From: Streptomyces triticirhizae
GTDB lineage: Bacteria > Actinomycetota > Actinomycetes > Streptomycetales > Streptomycetaceae
Assembly (NCBI RefSeq): GCF_003696235.1
Contig: NZ_RFFJ01000002.1
Coordinates: forward strand, 1-64,000
Direction: 5' to 3'
Length of the DNA: 64,000 nucleotides
Position 1 is the stretch's first letter. Each line of letters starts with the position of its first letter. The translations under genes and the position numbers were made by a program. Shown piece by piece: positions 76 through 22,857 of this stretch. The notes beneath the pieces were generated by a model, which ran no database searches, was not told where the DNA came from, and was given only the letters and a program-made list of their open reading frames with translations.

Positions 76-1404
76 TCAGCGCTGTTCCAGCCACTCCGCC
101 TGCGCCTCGTTGAGCTGCTCGGCCAGGTCGTCGGCGAACTCCTGGGCGGTCATCTCGCCCAGCAACAGCCGCTGGAAGTTGGGCTCGCTGCCGGACTTGG
201 TGATGTCGTTCCAGTCGGGCAGGTAGTAGGGCAGCTGCACGATGGTGGTGTTCTCGTCGTTGAGCGCCTCGACCGCGGCCTGGGTGGGCGGCGCCTCGGC
301 GATCCACGGGTCGTCCAGCACGGCGGTGTTGGACGGTATCTGGCCGGCGGACTCGTTCCAGCGGCTGTTCATCTCGTGGGAGAGGGCGAACTCGATGAAG
401 GTCCAGGCCGCCTCCTTGTTGTCGCTGGAGCGGAAGAGGCCCAGGCCGTCCACCGGGTTGGAGACGAAGGTGCGGCCGCCGCCCTCCTCGGAGGTCGGCA
501 TCGGCAGCCCGTCGACGACGCCCTCACCGAAGGCGGCGGTGTGGTCGCCGTAGGAGCCCAGGTTGTGCTGGAGCATCCCGACGGTGCCGCCGGTGAACGT
601 GGCGACCATGTTGGTGAAGTCGCTGTTGAGGTCGGCCTCGGGCGTGACGCGGTTGTACAGGTCCACGTAGTTCTGCAACGCCTCGACGTTGGCCGGGTCG
701 TTGACCGTGGTCTGGTCGCCGTCCCAGAAGCTGTCGATGCCGGACTGGGCGTACATCATGTCCAGGGCCTGGGCGATGGAGCCCTCGCCGCCCCTGAGGG
801 TGAAGCCGAACGCGTTGTTGGCGCGGTCGGTCAGGGCCTCGGCGGCGGTGAAGAAGTTCTCCCAGGTGGTGGGGGGTTCCAGCCCGGCCTCGTCGAAGAG
901 GTCGGTGCGGAACCAGATCACGCCCTGGTTGGCGGAGGTCGGCACGGAGTACGCCTCCTCGCCGTCGCCGACGGTGGAGCGCACGCTCTGGAGCATGTTG
1001 GGGATGAGCTGCTCCTCAAGTCCGCTCTCGGCGAGGCGGTCGTCCACCGGGTCGAGGGCGCCCTGGGCGACGAGGTTGGCCAGGTAGGAGGTGGAGACGC
1101 CGCCCACGTCGGGCAGCCCGTCGCCGCCGCCCTGGATGGCGGCGTCGTACTTGGACTGGACGTCGGCGATCGGGACGCCCACGTACTGCACCTCGATGTC
1201 GGGGTGCTCCTCGTGGAAGGCGTCGATGATCTCGTTCCAGATCTCGGTGCGGGCGCCGCCGTTGTTGTCCCAGAAGACGATCTTTCCGGTGCCGTCGCCC
1301 TCGGCTCCGGAGGAGGTGCCGTCGTCCCCGCACGCGGTCGCGGTCAGGGCCAGGACAAGCCCGGTGGCGGCGACGATGGCGCCCCGGGTCCGCTGTGTTC
1401 TCAT
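76..1404 (-). CDS. Sugar ABC transporter substrate-binding lipoprotein
   Basis: This 442-residue extracellular solute-binding protein (family 1 type) should capture a sugar or sugar acid outside the cell and deliver it to the two permeases encoded upstream. The N-terminus MRTQRTRG is basic, followed by a hydrophobic stretch and the lipobox-like ATAC, so Cys24 is the probable lipid anchor. I chose the ATG at 1404 over an ATG 42 bases upstream because GAGGAG lies just before it. It is the last gene of the minus-strand transport cluster, 96 bases after the oxidoreductase stop. The substrate cannot be read from the sequence; the flanking sugar-acid dehydratase suggests a sugar acid or its parent sugar. 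Confidence 0.9.
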   Translation of the reverse strand: MRTQRTRGAIVAATGLVLALTATACGDDGTSSGAEGDGTGKIVFWDNNGGARTEIWNEIIDAFHEEHPDIEVQYVGVPIADVQSKYDAAIQGGGDGLPDVGGVSTSYLANLVAQGALDPVDDRLAESGLEEQLIPNMLQSVRSTVGDGEEAYSVPTSANQGVIWFRTDLFDEAGLEPPTTWENFFTAAEALTDRANNAFGFTLRGGEGSIAQALDMMYAQSGIDSFWDGDQTTVNDPANVEALQNYVDLYNRVTPEADLNSDFTNMVATFTGGTVGMLQHNLGSYGDHTAAFGEGVVDGLPMPTSEEGGGRTFVSNPVDGLGLFRSSDNKEAAWTFIEFALSHEMNSRWNESAGQIPSNTAVLDDPWIAEAPPTQAAVEALNDENTTIVQLPYYLPDWNDITKSGSEPNFQRLLLGEMTAQEFADDLAEQLNEAQAEWLEQR

Positions 1405-1500
1405 CGGTGCTCCTCGGTGAAGGTGGTTGCGTGTGCGGTTGTTCATGGGGGTGCTTGCGGGGGTCTGGCGGCGGCCGGGAGGCGGCGCGGGCCGTCGTCC

Positions 1501-2658
1501 TCAGGTGGGGCGCGGGCGGCCGGGGGCGGCGGCCCAGGGGGCGCCCAACTCGGAGTAGAGGGCGAGCCGCTCGGCGCCCTCGGCGGTCAGCCGGTCGATG
1601 CCGCGCAGCACCCGGCGGACGCCGGCGGCGGTGCGTTCCTCGTGCCAGTGCGCGGGCGAGAGGGCCACCGGGTCGGGCGCGGTGCGCACCGCCTCGACCA
1701 GCCGCATGAAGCCGCCGGTGCGCTCGGGCGGCACCAACAGCTCGGCGCCTTCGCGGAGATGGGCGACCAGGTTGGCCAGCAGGTCGGTGCGGGGGTGCTC
1801 GGTGACCACCGGGTCGCGGCCCGGGCGCTCCAGCCGCACCCGGTCCTCCTTGTACCAGAACGTGATCCGGCCGGCCTCGCCGTGCACCACCACATAGGGC
1901 TCGCCCGGCCGTTCGGCGCAGAGCGTCACGGCGGTGACCAGCTCGGTGCCGTCGGCGGTGCGCAGCCGGGCGCAGGAGGTGTCGTCGGCGTCGATGGCGT
2001 TGACCCGGTACAGCTCCAGGTCGATCGCGGCCAGGTCCTCGGCGCGGTCGGCGCCCGCGATGCGCAGGGCGGTGGCGACGGCGTGCGCCAGCGGGTTGGT
2101 CAGCACGCCGTCCACCACGTCGCGCCCGTCGAGCCGGCGCAGCCCGCCCCACGGCGCGCGCCCCCAGTACGCCTCGTCGCGCACCCACGCGCCGGCGGCG
2201 CCCAGTCCGGTGACCCGGCCGATGACGCCGTCCCGCACCAGCTGCCTGATGTGCTCGATGGCGCCCGAGCCCAGCGACTGGAAGCCGATCTGGCAGGCGG
2301 TGCCGGCCCGTTGGATGCCGTCGGTCAGCTGCCGGAACGCGGCCAGCGAGGGGGTGGGCGGCTTCTCCAGCAGCAGGTGGACGCCCCGGGCGGCGGCGGC
2401 CAGGCCCAGCTCGGCGTGGGTGTGGATGGGGGTGCAGACGATGGCGACCTCGGCGCCGGTGCGCTCCAGCAGGGCGGGCAGGTCGGGTGACTGCTCGGGC
2501 TTCCCGAGGCCGGCCAGTTCCTCGTCGGCCAGCGGGGTCAGCTCGCAGACGCCGACCAGCCGCACCAGGCCGGCCGCCGTGAGCCGGCGAAGGTTGGCCA
2601 GGTGCCAGTGGCCGTGTCCCCTGGCCCCGGCCAGCACCACCGTGACGGGCTCGTTCAT
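1501..2658 (-). CDS. Gfo/Idh/MocA family NAD(P)-dependent oxidoreductase
   Basis: The 385-residue product begins MNEPVTVVLAGARGHGHWH, a Rossmann nucleotide-binding start in which the glycine-rich motif is GARGHGH. It has the EKPPTPS stretch (about residue 100) that corresponds to the family EKP motif, whose Lys contacts cofactor and substrate. Members oxidise or epimerise sugars and inositols in the cytoplasm. Its ATG overlaps the preceding permease stop as ATGA (2655-2658), so the two are translationally coupled. In this context it probably oxidises the imported sugar or an intermediate feeding the dehydratase. The exact substrate is unknown. Confidence 0.85.
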   Translation of the reverse strand: MNEPVTVVLAGARGHGHWHLANLRRLTAAGLVRLVGVCELTPLADEELAGLGKPEQSPDLPALLERTGAEVAIVCTPIHTHAELGLAAAARGVHLLLEKPPTPSLAAFRQLTDGIQRAGTACQIGFQSLGSGAIEHIRQLVRDGVIGRVTGLGAAGAWVRDEAYWGRAPWGGLRRLDGRDVVDGVLTNPLAHAVATALRIAGADRAEDLAAIDLELYRVNAIDADDTSCARLRTADGTELVTAVTLCAERPGEPYVVVHGEAGRITFWYKEDRVRLERPGRDPVVTEHPRTDLLANLVAHLREGAELLVPPERTGGFMRLVEAVRTAPDPVALSPAHWHEERTAAGVRRVLRGIDRLTAEGAERLALYSELGAPWAAAPGRPRPT

Positions 2659-3548
2659 CCCTTGACCGCCCCCGCGCTGAAGCCGGTGATCAACCAGCGC
2701 TGGATGAACGCGAAGACGATCACCACCGGCACGGCGGCCACCACGCCGCCGGCCGCCAGCGCCCCCAGGTCCACGCTGTCGGAGCCGAGGAGGGTGTTGA
2801 GCCCGACCGGAATCGTCTGCCTGTCCTGGGAGTTGAGGAACATCAGCGCGAACAGGAAGTGGTTCCAGCTGTGCACGAAAGCGAACGAGCCGACGGCGAC
2901 CAGCCCGGGGCGCAGCAGCGGCAGCACCACGGCGAGGAACGCCCGCAGCCGGGTGCAGCCGTCCACCCACGCCTGTTCCTCCAGGCTGGGTGGCACGTTC
3001 CTGATGAACCCGCTGATCAGGATCATCGACAGCGGCAGCTGGAAGACGGTCTCGGCGAGGATCACGGACCACAGCGAGTTGAGCAGCTGGAGTTCCCGGA
3101 AGATCTCGAAGAGCGGCACCAGCATCAGCGCCCCGGGAATGAACTGCGAGCAGAGCAGCGCCAGCATGAACGGCATCTTCAGCCGGAACCTGAACCGGGC
3201 CAGCGCATAGCCGCCGGAGAGCGCGACCAGCAGCGTCATCAGCATCGAGGCGATGCCCACATACATGCTGTTGACGAAGTAGGTGTCGAAGCCGCGTTCG
3301 TTCCACACCTTGGCGAAGTGCTCGCCGGTGATCGGCCAGGGCACCAGGGAGTCGGAGCCCGGCTCGCGGAGCGCGAACAGCAGCATCCAGTAGAAGGGGA
3401 CCAGCGTGAACAGCAGGTACACGCCGAGCGGAACGTAGATCTGCCAGCGCGGCGGCTCGTCGTAGGAGCGGCGACGTTTCCTGGAGTCGCCGGGCGGTGC
3501 GGGGGGCGCGTCGAGCGCCGGCTGCGGCGTGGTGAGTGCGGCGGTCAC
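2655..3548 (-). CDS. Carbohydrate ABC transporter permease, MalG type
   Basis: This 297-residue inner-membrane permease has the binding-protein-dependent transport fold with about six membrane segments; the first is YVPLGVYLLFTLVPFYWML. The EAA-like loop that docks the ATPase reads EEQAWVDGCTRLRAF. The start is a GTG at 3548 overlapping the stop of the first permease as GTGA. The N-terminal 40 residues are cytoplasmic and rich in Pro and Arg. It forms a heterodimeric channel with the MalF-type protein upstream. No ATPase is encoded nearby, so a shared subunit such as MsiK is probably used (inference). Confidence 0.92.
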   Translation of the reverse strand: MTAALTTPQPALDAPPAPPGDSRKRRRSYDEPPRWQIYVPLGVYLLFTLVPFYWMLLFALREPGSDSLVPWPITGEHFAKVWNERGFDTYFVNSMYVGIASMLMTLLVALSGGYALARFRFRLKMPFMLALLCSQFIPGALMLVPLFEIFRELQLLNSLWSVILAETVFQLPLSMILISGFIRNVPPSLEEQAWVDGCTRLRAFLAVVLPLLRPGLVAVGSFAFVHSWNHFLFALMFLNSQDRQTIPVGLNTLLGSDSVDLGALAAGGVVAAVPVVIVFAFIQRWLITGFSAGAVKG

Positions 3549-20249: not shown

Positions 20250-21374
20250 TCAGTCGAGGCCCTCCAACGCCACGGGCATCAACAGCGACATCCGCTCGGC
20301 GCGGCCGCCCCCCGGGCCCGTGCTTTCAGGGCGGAACGTCAGCGGCGCGCTGGGGCCCGCGATCTCCACCTCCGCCCGGTCCGAGGCCAGCGCGGCCAGC
20401 GCCTCGGTGAGGAACTCCCGGTCCACGGCTACCCGTTGCCCCTCGCCCTCGCCCGGCCGCAGCGCGCCGTCCGCCGTGAGGGTGAGCACGCTCACCGCGC
20501 GGCGCGCGCCGTCCGTTCCGCGCCGCTCCTCCCGCACCGGGCCGGCCGCCACCTCGGCGCGCAGCGCCGCCGCGTCCACGACCACCCTGCGGCCGGCGGC
20601 CCCGCCGACCAGCCGGCGGTAGTCGGGATACGTCTCGTCGACGGCGGGGCCCGACGCCACCCGGCCACCGACCTCCAGCGCGACATCCACGGGCCGCACC
20701 GTCAGCCGCGCCGGCCAGGCGGCCCCCGTGAGCAGCGCCCGCATCGCGTCCACCACCGGCGTCGCCACCAGCGCCCGCGCCCGGTCGCCGCGCGCCGACA
20801 GCGGCACCCCGGCCACGGCCAGCCGGTAGCGGTCGGTGGCGACCAGCCGCAGCGTGCCGTCCTCGACGTCGAACAACACCCCGGCGAGCGCCGGGAGTTC
20901 CGGGTCGTGCCCGACGGCGAACCGCACCGCGTCCAAGGCGGCGGCCAGTTCCGCCCCCGCCAGCGTCAGCGTCACCACTCGGGACTCACTCGTGGTCATG
21001 GCGTTCTCCTTCTTCCCGGTGTGCTCGTTCTTCTCGACGGTGCCGCGCAGTCGGGAGAGTTCGGACCTGGCCTCGGCCACGCCCCGTTCCAGGCGGCGGA
21101 CATGAGCCGCGAGCAGCCGCACCGGCAGCGTCGGGTCTCCACCGGCCCGGCCGGCCAGAGCCAGCCTGATGTCCGCCAGCGGCATCCCCACCCGGCGCAA
21201 CACCGCCACCAGCCGCGCCTCGGCCACCTGCTCCCGGTCGTAACGCCGGTAGCCGGTCCCCCGGTCGACCACCGCCGGCACCAACACGCCGGCCCCGTCG
21301 TAGAACCGCAGCGCGCTCACCGGCAACCCACTCGCCCTGGCGACCTCGCCGATGCCCAACCGTTCGCTCTCCAC
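20250..21374 (-). CDS. MerR-family HTH fused to DNA polymerase III beta-clamp domains
   Basis: Residues 1-75 are a MerR winged helix (RLGIGEVARASGLPVSALRF, TGYRRYDREQVAEARLVAVL) and residues about 85-120 a coiled coil. From about residue 125 to the end (374) the protein resembles sliding-clamp domains 2 and 3: LRLVATDRYRLAV, TYPDYRRL, FLTEALAAL and the terminal LLMPVALEGL are DnaN hallmarks. Clamp domain 1 is missing. I chose the GTG at 21374, which fits a MerR-type promoter with TTGACC (21412-21407) and a 19-base spacer, giving an almost leaderless message; GTG 21383 is the alternative. A strong internal ribosome site precedes Met126 (ATG 20999). The role is unknown: perhaps a regulator that contacts clamp partners or senses DNA. 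Confidence 0.85.
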   Translation of the reverse strand: MESERLGIGEVARASGLPVSALRFYDGAGVLVPAVVDRGTGYRRYDREQVAEARLVAVLRRVGMPLADIRLALAGRAGGDPTLPVRLLAAHVRRLERGVAEARSELSRLRGTVEKNEHTGKKENAMTTSESRVVTLTLAGAELAAALDAVRFAVGHDPELPALAGVLFDVEDGTLRLVATDRYRLAVAGVPLSARGDRARALVATPVVDAMRALLTGAAWPARLTVRPVDVALEVGGRVASGPAVDETYPDYRRLVGGAAGRRVVVDAAALRAEVAAGPVREERRGTDGARRAVSVLTLTADGALRPGEGEGQRVAVDREFLTEALAALASDRAEVEIAGPSAPLTFRPESTGPGGGRAERMSLLMPVALEGLD

Positions 21375-21483
21375 GCCGCTCACTCTGCGCCCTGAAGCAG
21401 GTCGAGGGTCAAGCCACAGCGCCCGGCGGGGACCGCCGCGCTTCGGGTAGGGTCCAGGCCGCCAGACGCGACGCGGGGGAACG

Positions 21484-22857
21484 GTGAACGTCATGCGGGG
21501 TGCGGAGTTCGGCGAGGTCGGCGAGCCGCTGGGGCCGGACGACCCGACGACGGTGGGCGGGTACCGGCTGGCCGCGCGGCTCGGCTCGGGCGGGATGGGG
21601 CGGGTGTACCTCTCCCACACGCCGGGCGGTCGGCCGGTGGCGGTCAAGGTGATCCGCGCGGAGTTCGCGGAGGACCCGGCGTTCCGGGCCCGGTTCCGGC
21701 ACGAGGTGGCGGCGGCCCGGCGCGTGCCGGCGCTGTGCACGGCGCCGGTCCTCGACGGCGACCCCGAGGCGGCGACGCCCTGGCTGGCGACGGCCTATGT
21801 CCCGGGTACCTCGCTGGCCGACGTTGTGAACCGACACGGCGGACTCCCGTTCCCCCCACTGCTGTTGCTGGTGGCCGGGGTGGCGGAGGCGCTGGGCGCG
21901 ATCCACGGCGCGGGGGTCGTGCACCGCGACCTCAAGCCGGCCAACGTCCTGCTGTCCGCCGACGGGCCCCGCGTCATCGACTTCGGGATCGCCAGGGCCG
22001 CCGACGCCACGGCGCTGACACGCGGCGGTTCGGTGGTCGGCACCCCCACCTTCATGGCGCCCGAACAGGCGTTGGGCAGGCCGGTGGTGGCGGCCAGCGA
22101 CATCTTCTCGCTCGGCCAGCTGACGGTCTTCGCGGCCACGGGGCGACCGGCGTTCGGGGAGGGCACCGCGCACGGGGTGCTCTACCGGATCGTTCACGAA
22201 CAGCCGTCCCTGGACGGCGTTCCCGAACCGCTGCTGCCCCTGGTCGAACGCTGCCTGGCCAAGGACCCGACGGCCCGCCCCACACCCGCCGAGGTCATCG
22301 CCGCCTGCCAGGAACTCGCGCCGGGAACGGGCCCCCTGAGCCGGAGCCCCGACTGGCTGCCACCGACCCCACCCACCCCGCGCCGCCCCCGCCGCCGCCA
22401 ACTCGCCCTGCTCGCCGGCGCGCTGGCCCTCCTCGCCTCGGGCGGCCACCTCCTCCTCCCGAACGACGAGCGGCCCCCGGCCGGCGAGGAGTACGGCACG
22501 ATCGAACTCCCCGCCGGCGACCACCTCTTCCTCGGCGAGGACCCCGTGACGCCCCGCGCGTCGAACGCCTCCAACGCGCACCAGATCGACCTGCGCTACT
22601 TCACCGGCGGCGAAGAGCCCCTGCTCCGCACCGCCGAGGGCAACGAACTGGTCCGACTCCCCGCGAACGCCGCCCCCACGGCGGAGTCCTGCCGCGCGCA
22701 GGACTCCCCCACGGTGGCGCTGCCGCTGAACTCCTTCACCCCAGGCGACCGCCTCTGCGTCCGCACCCGCGCCGGCCACGTGGCCCTCATCACCCTCACC
22801 CACCCCGCCCCCGGCCCCCACATCACCCTCACCCTGACCCTCTGGCGCGCCCCCTGA
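21484..22857 (+). CDS. Transmembrane Ser/Thr protein kinase (Hanks type)
   Basis: The 457-residue kinase has the glycine loop LGSGGMGRVYL, the ATP lysine VAVKVI, the catalytic loop HRDLKPANVLL, the metal-binding DFGIAR and the GTPTFMAPEQ activation segment (residues about 20-275). A Pro/Arg-rich juxtamembrane stretch precedes one membrane helix (QLALLAGALALLASGGHLLL, about residue 305). A C-terminal extracellular domain of about 130 residues has two cysteines that may pair. It lacks PASTA repeats, so it is not PknB itself. The start is GTG 21484 after GGGGGAAC. A 10-bp hairpin follows the stop. Confidence 0.93.
   Translation: MNVMRGAEFGEVGEPLGPDDPTTVGGYRLAARLGSGGMGRVYLSHTPGGRPVAVKVIRAEFAEDPAFRARFRHEVAAARRVPALCTAPVLDGDPEAATPWLATAYVPGTSLADVVNRHGGLPFPPLLLLVAGVAEALGAIHGAGVVHRDLKPANVLLSADGPRVIDFGIARAADATALTRGGSVVGTPTFMAPEQALGRPVVAASDIFSLGQLTVFAATGRPAFGEGTAHGVLYRIVHEQPSLDGVPEPLLPLVERCLAKDPTARPTPAEVIAACQELAPGTGPLSRSPDWLPPTPPTPRRPRRRQLALLAGALALLASGGHLLLPNDERPPAGEEYGTIELPAGDHLFLGEDPVTPRASNASNAHQIDLRYFTGGEEPLLRTAEGNELVRLPANAAPTAESCRAQDSPTVALPLNSFTPGDRLCVRTRAGHVALITLTHPAPGPHITLTLTLWRAP

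Follow-up and report, generated by a model that had tools for sequence, protein, structure and literature searches.

A MerR regulator fused to sliding-clamp domains II and III in Streptomyces triticirhizae: a putative autoregulated sensor and decoy for clamp-pocket ligands

The window analysed here is a stretch of 64,000 nucleotides (nt) from Streptomyces triticirhizae (contig NZ_RFFJ01000002.1 of assembly GCF_003696235.1, positions 1 to 64,000). Its minus strand carries a gene for a protein in which the DNA-binding head of a MerR regulator is joined to domains II and III of the sliding clamp DnaN. The gene is preceded by a putative promoter/operator and contains a second in-frame start codon at the junction of the two parts. 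The features are the following, in window coordinates:

20250..21374, minus strand: MerR-clamp fusion gene, open frame from GTG to stop, 374 amino acids (Pfam; AlphaFold2)
21153..21353, minus strand: MerR winged-helix DNA-binding domain, residues 8-74 (Pfam MerR_1, above the cut-off)
21003..21131, minus strand: long helix, residues 82-124, presumed dimerisation coiled coil (DSSP of the AlphaFold2 model)
20622..20963, minus strand: clamp domain II, residues 138-251 (Pfam DNA_pol3_beta_2; fold)
20253..20621, minus strand: clamp domain III, residues 252-374, ending in LLMPVALEGLD (fold aligned up to residue 366 of the E. coli clamp)
21006..21011, minus strand: internal Shine-Dalgarno sequence AAGGAG, 6 nt before an in-frame ATG and conserved in relatives
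20997..20999, minus strand: this internal ATG (codon 126), located where the MerR and clamp parts meet; a clamp-only short form of 249 amino acids is predicted to start here
21382..21412, minus strand: putative MerR-type promoter/operator, TTGACC and CAGAGT with a spacer of 19 base pairs (bp); start codon 7 nt downstream (leaderless type)

The internal start with its Shine-Dalgarno sequence and the promoter with the 19-bp spacer had not been described in the first-pass annotation of this DNA. That annotation had read the protein as an N-terminal MerR winged helix followed by clamp domains 2 and 3 without domain 1, and both parts of this reading held. The match of the N-terminus to Pfam MerR_1 had an E value of 8.3e-16, and VIA-align placed residues 130-370 onto residues 122-366 of the E. 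coli clamp (6fvl_D) with a Z score of 26.3 and a root-mean-square deviation of 2.2 over 225 aligned residues. The aligned span comprises clamp domains II and III alone and the remainder consists of the MerR part and the long helix, which by analogy to the MerR family is presumed to be the dimerisation coiled coil. Domain I, one of the three domains of the DnaN processivity clamp, is absent. A search with the Pfam clamp profiles, as had been proposed, was positive for DNA_pol3_beta_2 (E 4e-13), while the match to DNA_pol3_beta_3 was weak (E 0.049; 13.9 bits versus a cut-off of 27). TIGR00663 reached 69.9 bits against its curated cut-off of 137.65, and 13 other listed NCBIfam models also remained under their cut-offs. 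The AlphaFold2 model of the fusion, calculated from 39 aligned sequences (the window protein and 38 relatives), had a mean predicted local distance difference test score of 90.0 and a predicted template modelling score of 0.66, with a low-confidence hinge at residues 122-129 joining the long helix to the clamp part. The C-terminal part had a clamp-like fold, with 4n96_A as the top Foldseek match (E 2.1e-16). Fold and structural alignment support the presence of domain III despite the low Pfam score: its sequence has diverged and its fold is kept.

Of the best 80 loci in a collection of named genomes, 79 parsed as fusions of the two parts in this order. These loci represent at least a dozen actinobacterial genera, namely Streptomyces, Kitasatospora, Streptacidiphilus, Actinacidiphila, Micromonospora, Plantactinospora, Paractinoplanes, Winogradskya, Symbioplanes, Asanoa, Pseudonocardia, Blastococcus and Phytoactinopolyspora, together with one Corynebacteriales assembly, and the nearest relative among them was that of Streptomyces zhaozhouensis (66%). 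Because of this identical order we concluded that the fusion of MerR with clamp domains II and III is real and neither a chance product nor an annotation artefact. A wrong merger of two genes was ruled out, since the frame runs open through both parts in the relatives parsed. The collection gave 515 matches in total, which include MerR-only or clamp-only ones and were not used as a count of fusions. Left out of locus parsing were L067, L094 and L099, in which no motif was found, and L093, which has no MerR part.

The retention of clamp residues differed strongly between the pocket for partner proteins and the ring interface. The 18 pocket positions were taken from the list in PMC11139829. In 123 distinct relatives the actinobacterial DnaN consensus residue had a mean frequency of 0.76 at these positions, compared to 0.22 at the 223 others; a value this high was reached by 0 of 20000 randomly drawn sets. 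Among positions invariant in 11 DnaN/DnaN2 sequences, the retention was 0.86 at 11 pocket positions and 0.33 at 58 others, which again was reached by 0 of 20000 random sets. Subsites I and II of the DnaN partner pocket are thus kept in the family. The lists used for the channel and the interface consist in part of positions generally assigned to these sites of the clamp. At the ring-closing positions (E. coli 269, 272, 273, 298, 300, 301, 303 and 304) the DnaN consensus was found at a frequency of 0.04 only, and the alignment has gaps at ring-edge positions 301-305 for 132-133 of 135 relatives. At 198 and 205, where DnaN is basic, the MerR-clamp family mostly has Pro or Ala. Pocket, interface and charge counts exclude loci L098 and L100, which carry a diverged type (see below). 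Interface positions 272, 273, 298 and 304 are supported by PMC11139829. Global charge was considered as a sign of lost DNA binding and was uninformative, with a family median of -11 and values of -12 to -14 for housekeeping DnaN.

With pocket residues kept while the ring interface is gone, the pattern is as would be expected for a domain that binds ligands but has given up its role as a clamp. The idea of a clamp anchored at a promoter, put forward in the first-pass annotation, lost ground in its ring-forming version, since the protein has neither domain I nor the edge that closes the ring. Another view would be that of an ordinary MerR regulator, the C-terminal domain of which now binds an unrelated metabolite while the pocket residues stay for folding alone. 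Many MerR effector domains are reused folds, which speaks for such a view; the pocket was, however, retained far better than positions equally invariant in DnaN, and we regard this explanation as very improbable.

The internal start was tested in 144 distinct relatives. They come from the 158 loci that were parsed out of 217, a set in which many loci contain other genes. In 121 of the 144 relatives, the 26 codons before the clamp part include an ATG or GTG in frame, preceded by a Shine-Dalgarno sequence; for windows of equal size in other parts of these open reading frames the figure was 60 of 1558. Of the 61 Arg codons that lie within six codons ahead of the junction start, 44 were AGG, compared to 72 of 2289 in the rest of the frames (the junction was mis-assigned in L088 and L095, and none was found in L098 and L100). 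This enrichment points to selection on the ribosome-binding site itself. Since junction start and Shine-Dalgarno sequence are conserved to this extent, a clamp-only short protein is probably made from the internal start.

Genome G171 (locus L137) showed a related arrangement: an operator is followed by a clamp-only gene without MerR part (2348-3103, minus strand) and, 35 nt further on, by a second full-length dnaN (1170-2309, minus strand). The clamp-only gene, comprising domains II-III, was placed inside the MerR-clamp clade of the tree and appears to be the short form as a separate gene beside a spare clamp. A second, diverged MerR-clamp type without junction start was seen at L098, L100 and L139-L141. 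The tree does not join it clearly to the main family, and it may have arisen by a separate fusion event; the dyad in L098 and L100 is TTCA..TGAA within a 19-bp spacer.

MerR-family promoters are characterised by an over-long spacer of 19-20 bp that holds a dyad, and the promoter in the window, with its spacer of 19 bp, has this feature. In relatives, the consensus consists of TTGACC, a 19-base spacer with the dyad CTCGACC..GGTCGAG, and CAGAGT or a similar hexamer. The second half-site of the window operator itself is imperfect (CTTCAG). Of 58 loci, 55 have this element ahead of the fusion gene; the start codon follows after 6-8 nt, and after exactly 7 bases in 53 of the 55. The standard element is missing at L073, which is cut off by the end of its contig, and at L098 and L100, where a different dyad has the same spacing. 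When up to 3 mismatches were allowed, the element was found at all parsed named loci (79 of 79), across families.

In the 121 Micromonosporaceae genomes, 50 of which have the MerR-clamp gene, the operator pattern gave 79 matches and the reversed pattern none. These operators precede 40 MerR-clamp genes, 15 genes for tetratricopeptide-repeat (TPR)-like proteins, 10 major facilitator superfamily (MFS) genes, 6 YunG genes, 5 housekeeping dnaN genes and one gene of which a clamp end alone was read, with 2 unassigned, the classes being assigned by short motifs and by the script's choice of reading frame and start, with Pfam run on six examples. An operator was present in 42 of the 50 regulator-bearing genomes and in 0 of the 71 that lack the gene, a difference partly due to the self-operator. 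When only sites before other genes were counted, the numbers were 28 of 50 versus 0 of 71 (Fisher test, 4e-14). In view of this co-occurrence, the regulator may bind and distort the putative operator promoter, as MerR proteins do. Genes for YunG (PF24585; L295, L270, L298, L308) and for a TPR-like protein of about 150 amino acids (L300, L311, L336) recur behind it, with the start codon 6-8 nt past the -10 hexamer. Six loci of genus g184 (L201, a Plantactinospora, and L321, L325, L328, L329 and L332) have lost the junction start. Five of these six genomes bear MFS or TPR-like target operators; decoy and exporters may be alternative outputs.

The five dnaN operators (L306, L307, L310, L259, L280) all belong to one genus, Micromonospora by sequence match, and occur in 5 of its 8 sampled genomes. 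They are located between dnaA and oriC, at the dnaA-side edge of oriC and 659-660 nt upstream of dnaN; transcription from them would cross oriC. Operators at dnaN and at second dnaN genes are in line with a homeostatic sensor of clamp supply, the pocket of which would take up the clamp-binding motifs of the cell's own polymerases and repair proteins when these are left unbound because clamps run short. Its MerR part would then raise dnaN expression. Clamp partners share this pocket for binding (PMC11139829), which also speaks for such a sensor. The restriction of the dnaN operator to one sampled genus and the 10 operators before MFS genes do not suit this view, and a gene as patchy as 50 in 121 genomes fits housekeeping control poorly. 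We rate it as unlikely. The position next to oriC and the conserved pocket could also indicate a recruiter or tether, recruitment of clamp-binding proteins having been suggested in the first-pass annotation as well: the pockets of a promoter-bound dimer would bring polymerase or repair proteins to the DNA, or tune transcription across oriC. Against this, the start codon lies 6-8 nt downstream at 40 of 76 placed operators, as in plain promoters, and a conserved separate short form would have no place in such a device. Chances for this explanation appear slim.

In Streptomycetaceae, the operator occurs almost only before the fusion gene, as judged by comparing the locus lists by eye at up to 2 mismatches and reading the exceptions individually. 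The exceptions were decayed copies in G100 and G052, the operon of clamp-only gene and second dnaN in G171, a second dnaN in G145 and an MFS gene in G012. Matches with three mismatches were disregarded in this family, since the reversed control gave 26 by our own count. A class-wide scan of 394 genomes yielded 20 matches. Eleven of them lie outside the family of the window, and 8 of these precede a MerR-clamp gene, including the stop-shortened L242 and L243, which runs into N. The others precede a broken MerR start (L241), dnaN (L258) and nothing recognisable (L249). A second dnaN follows the operator in G171 and G145, and a link of these genes to a non-ribosomal peptide synthetase (NRPS) cluster was dropped, as none was noticed in the partial flanks. 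In Streptacidiphilus, a genus assigned to these genomes from G002/L179, a second full dnaN (L156, L157, L158) lies in the chromosomal slot that the MerR-clamp gene takes in other members (L047, L052, L063, L089); genes for SSB-like (single-strand-binding-like), ABC-F ATPase and thioesterase-like proteins lie before the slot and shared genes after it. No operator was found at these second dnaN genes (G037, G078, G046).

The genomic contexts of the fusion gene varied. Across 60 loci, the fusion cluster alone spans all of them, with a second dnaN in its place at L093, and the commonest other gene cluster occurs in 14. Control of a conserved neighbour was ruled out, since no neighbour cluster is common to more than these 14 loci. 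In the window, a Ser/Thr protein kinase gene (21484-22857, plus strand) diverges from the MerR-clamp promoter; it is not a conserved neighbour and clusters with one gene at L064, three genes off and non-adjacent. In the family of the window, strong matches to the clamp part (E < 1e-12, far above housekeeping DnaN) were counted by eye in about 96 of 200 genomes. Patchy distribution and many contexts would also suit a sensor and decoy for phage proteins, which would sense phage clamp poisons and shield replication during infection by means of the short form. The clamp is also hit by other inhibitors, and the structural matches include the complex of the clamp with Gp168 (7evp), which we take to be a phage protein. 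Exporters, in turn, would make little sense against a protein toxin, and this possibility seems decidedly unlikely.

We consider it probable, though well short of certain, that the MerR-clamp protein regulates its own gene and serves as sensor and decoy for ligands of the clamp pocket, for example griselimycin-like antibiotics. Griselimycin and mycoplanecin bind this pocket (PMC10817943). The effector domain would be a retired fragment of the sliding clamp, without ring closure and with the peptide pocket between domains II and III kept, and would mimic the antibiotic target. The trigger would be the entry of a clamp-pocket ligand into the cell, the likeliest candidate being a natural product directed at DnaN and similar to griselimycin or mycoplanecin. 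Upon ligand binding, a MerR dimer in the 19-bp spacer of its own promoter would switch on transcription. The transcript would yield the long sensor from the near-leaderless GTG and, from the internal Shine-Dalgarno start, the short form, which would soak up ligand. Certain lineages would use this operator to raise MFS exporters as well, and also dnaN or a second copy of it, resulting in overproduction or replacement of the target. The proposal rests on sequence features: the architecture, the retained pocket, the lost ring interface, the internal start, the promoter, the co-occurrence of operator and regulator and the identity of the operator targets. From these we infer operator binding, production of the short form, ligand binding, the antibiotic nature of the ligand and the direction of the response.

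Of the three suggestions in the first-pass annotation, that of a sensor of the replication state came nearest to our results, while the evidence favours ligands of the clamp pocket as the signal, because the pocket is kept, the ring interface is lost and the putative regulon of the relatives includes exporters and dnaN. A regulon of self or decoy, dnaN or spare dnaN and exporters resembles the set one would design against clamp-pocket molecules. A response to molecules from outside is favoured by the exporters and by the patchy distribution. To the wider view that Actinobacteria possess a dedicated response to clamp poisons, with a target-mimic MerR sensor, its own decoy and control over exporters, small proteins and dnaN or a spare copy of it, we give even chances. 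The possible alternatives, ordered by decreasing likelihood, are the sensor of clamp supply, the phage-protein sensor, the recruiter or oriC device and the metabolite sensor.

Several observations weigh against the proposed sensor and decoy. The pocket of the window protein has D instead of N at 320 and A instead of R at 365, and its affinity may therefore differ. The test for a junction start was negative in 23 of 144 relatives, 20 of which are Micromonosporaceae; one of the 23, L160, was a false miss with start and Shine-Dalgarno sequence further upstream, and L215, L219, L233, L238 and L287 still have the Met at the junction, with a Shine-Dalgarno sequence that is weaker or lies further away. 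The start spacing of 6-8 nt was seen in just 10 of 31 MFS, YunG and TPR-like targets, with the start as chosen by the script, and one MFS start lies 807 nt from the operator. The dnaN operator acts, if at all, over 659-660 nt across oriC and is limited to a single genus, so that its effect on dnaN is not certain. To our knowledge, neither TPR-like nor YunG proteins have been linked to drug resistance. In Streptomycetaceae, operators beyond the fusion gene are few (G171, G145, G012), and the genome of the window itself yielded the self-operator only, a loose pattern giving 2 control matches. In the class-wide scan the reversed pattern gave 4 matches. When reading frame starts around the second dnaN were read by eye, over about 18 kb to either side in G171 and on one side up to the contig end in G145, no NRPS was noticed.

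If the proposal is true, it would explain a widespread actinobacterial gene and tie the sliding clamp to an inducible resistance circuit. It would also point to new clamp-directed antibiotics, with the promoter as a ready-made biosensor or reporter for screening, and the breadth of the family would imply that inhibitors of the DnaN pocket are a common, largely undiscovered class of natural weapons. Inhibitors of the clamp pocket are candidate tuberculosis drugs, and amplification or overexpression of dnaN is a reported route to resistance in the laboratory (PMC8765428). It would thus be worth knowing how soil bacteria sense and resist such molecules.

No report of a MerR-clamp fusion and no assigned function for the gene were found in the open full-text literature of PMC, subscription papers being outside this scope. 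AlbA/AlbAS, an albicidin-binding transcription factor, is a MerR member with another binding domain. The closest parallel is TipA (TipAL/TipAS) of Streptomyces lividans, in which two start codons give rise to a long sensor and to a drug-trapping short form, the latter being predominant; TipA controls its own promoter and has been called a 'minimal autoregulated MDR (multidrug resistance) system' (PMC7762955). Like TipA, the fusion combines a MerR head and a ligand-binding tail in one gene, has two in-frame starts as a sequence feature, is predicted to give a short binding-domain form and apparently has its own promoter under its control. It differs in the effector domain, which is TipAS in TipA and clamp domains II and III here; no Pfam match to the TipAS domain (PF07739) was obtained for the window protein at E values up to 1. 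Unlike TipA, some relatives have further operators before dnaN, second dnaN, MFS, YunG and TPR-like genes. While known drug sensors such as TipA use a dedicated drug-binding domain, the sensor here is apparently a piece of the drug target itself. With GriR and MypR, encoded by the self-resistance dnaN genes griR and mypR of griselimycin and mycoplanecin producers (PMC10817943), the family shares a clamp-derived protein possibly tied to clamp-binding antibiotics, and a second dnaN stands behind the operator in G171 and G145. Those genes encode DnaN, whereas the window protein is not a full-length second DnaN but a fusion without domain I and ring-closing edge. With DnaN itself it shares the fold of domains II and III and the partner-binding pocket, and it differs in the missing domain I, the deleted ring edge and the Pro or Ala residues mostly found instead of basic ones at 198 and 205. 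The fusion is neither a TipA member, nor a processivity clamp, nor a GriR-type clamp, and on this comparison we regard it as a MerR protein with a new type of effector domain that would work like TipA.
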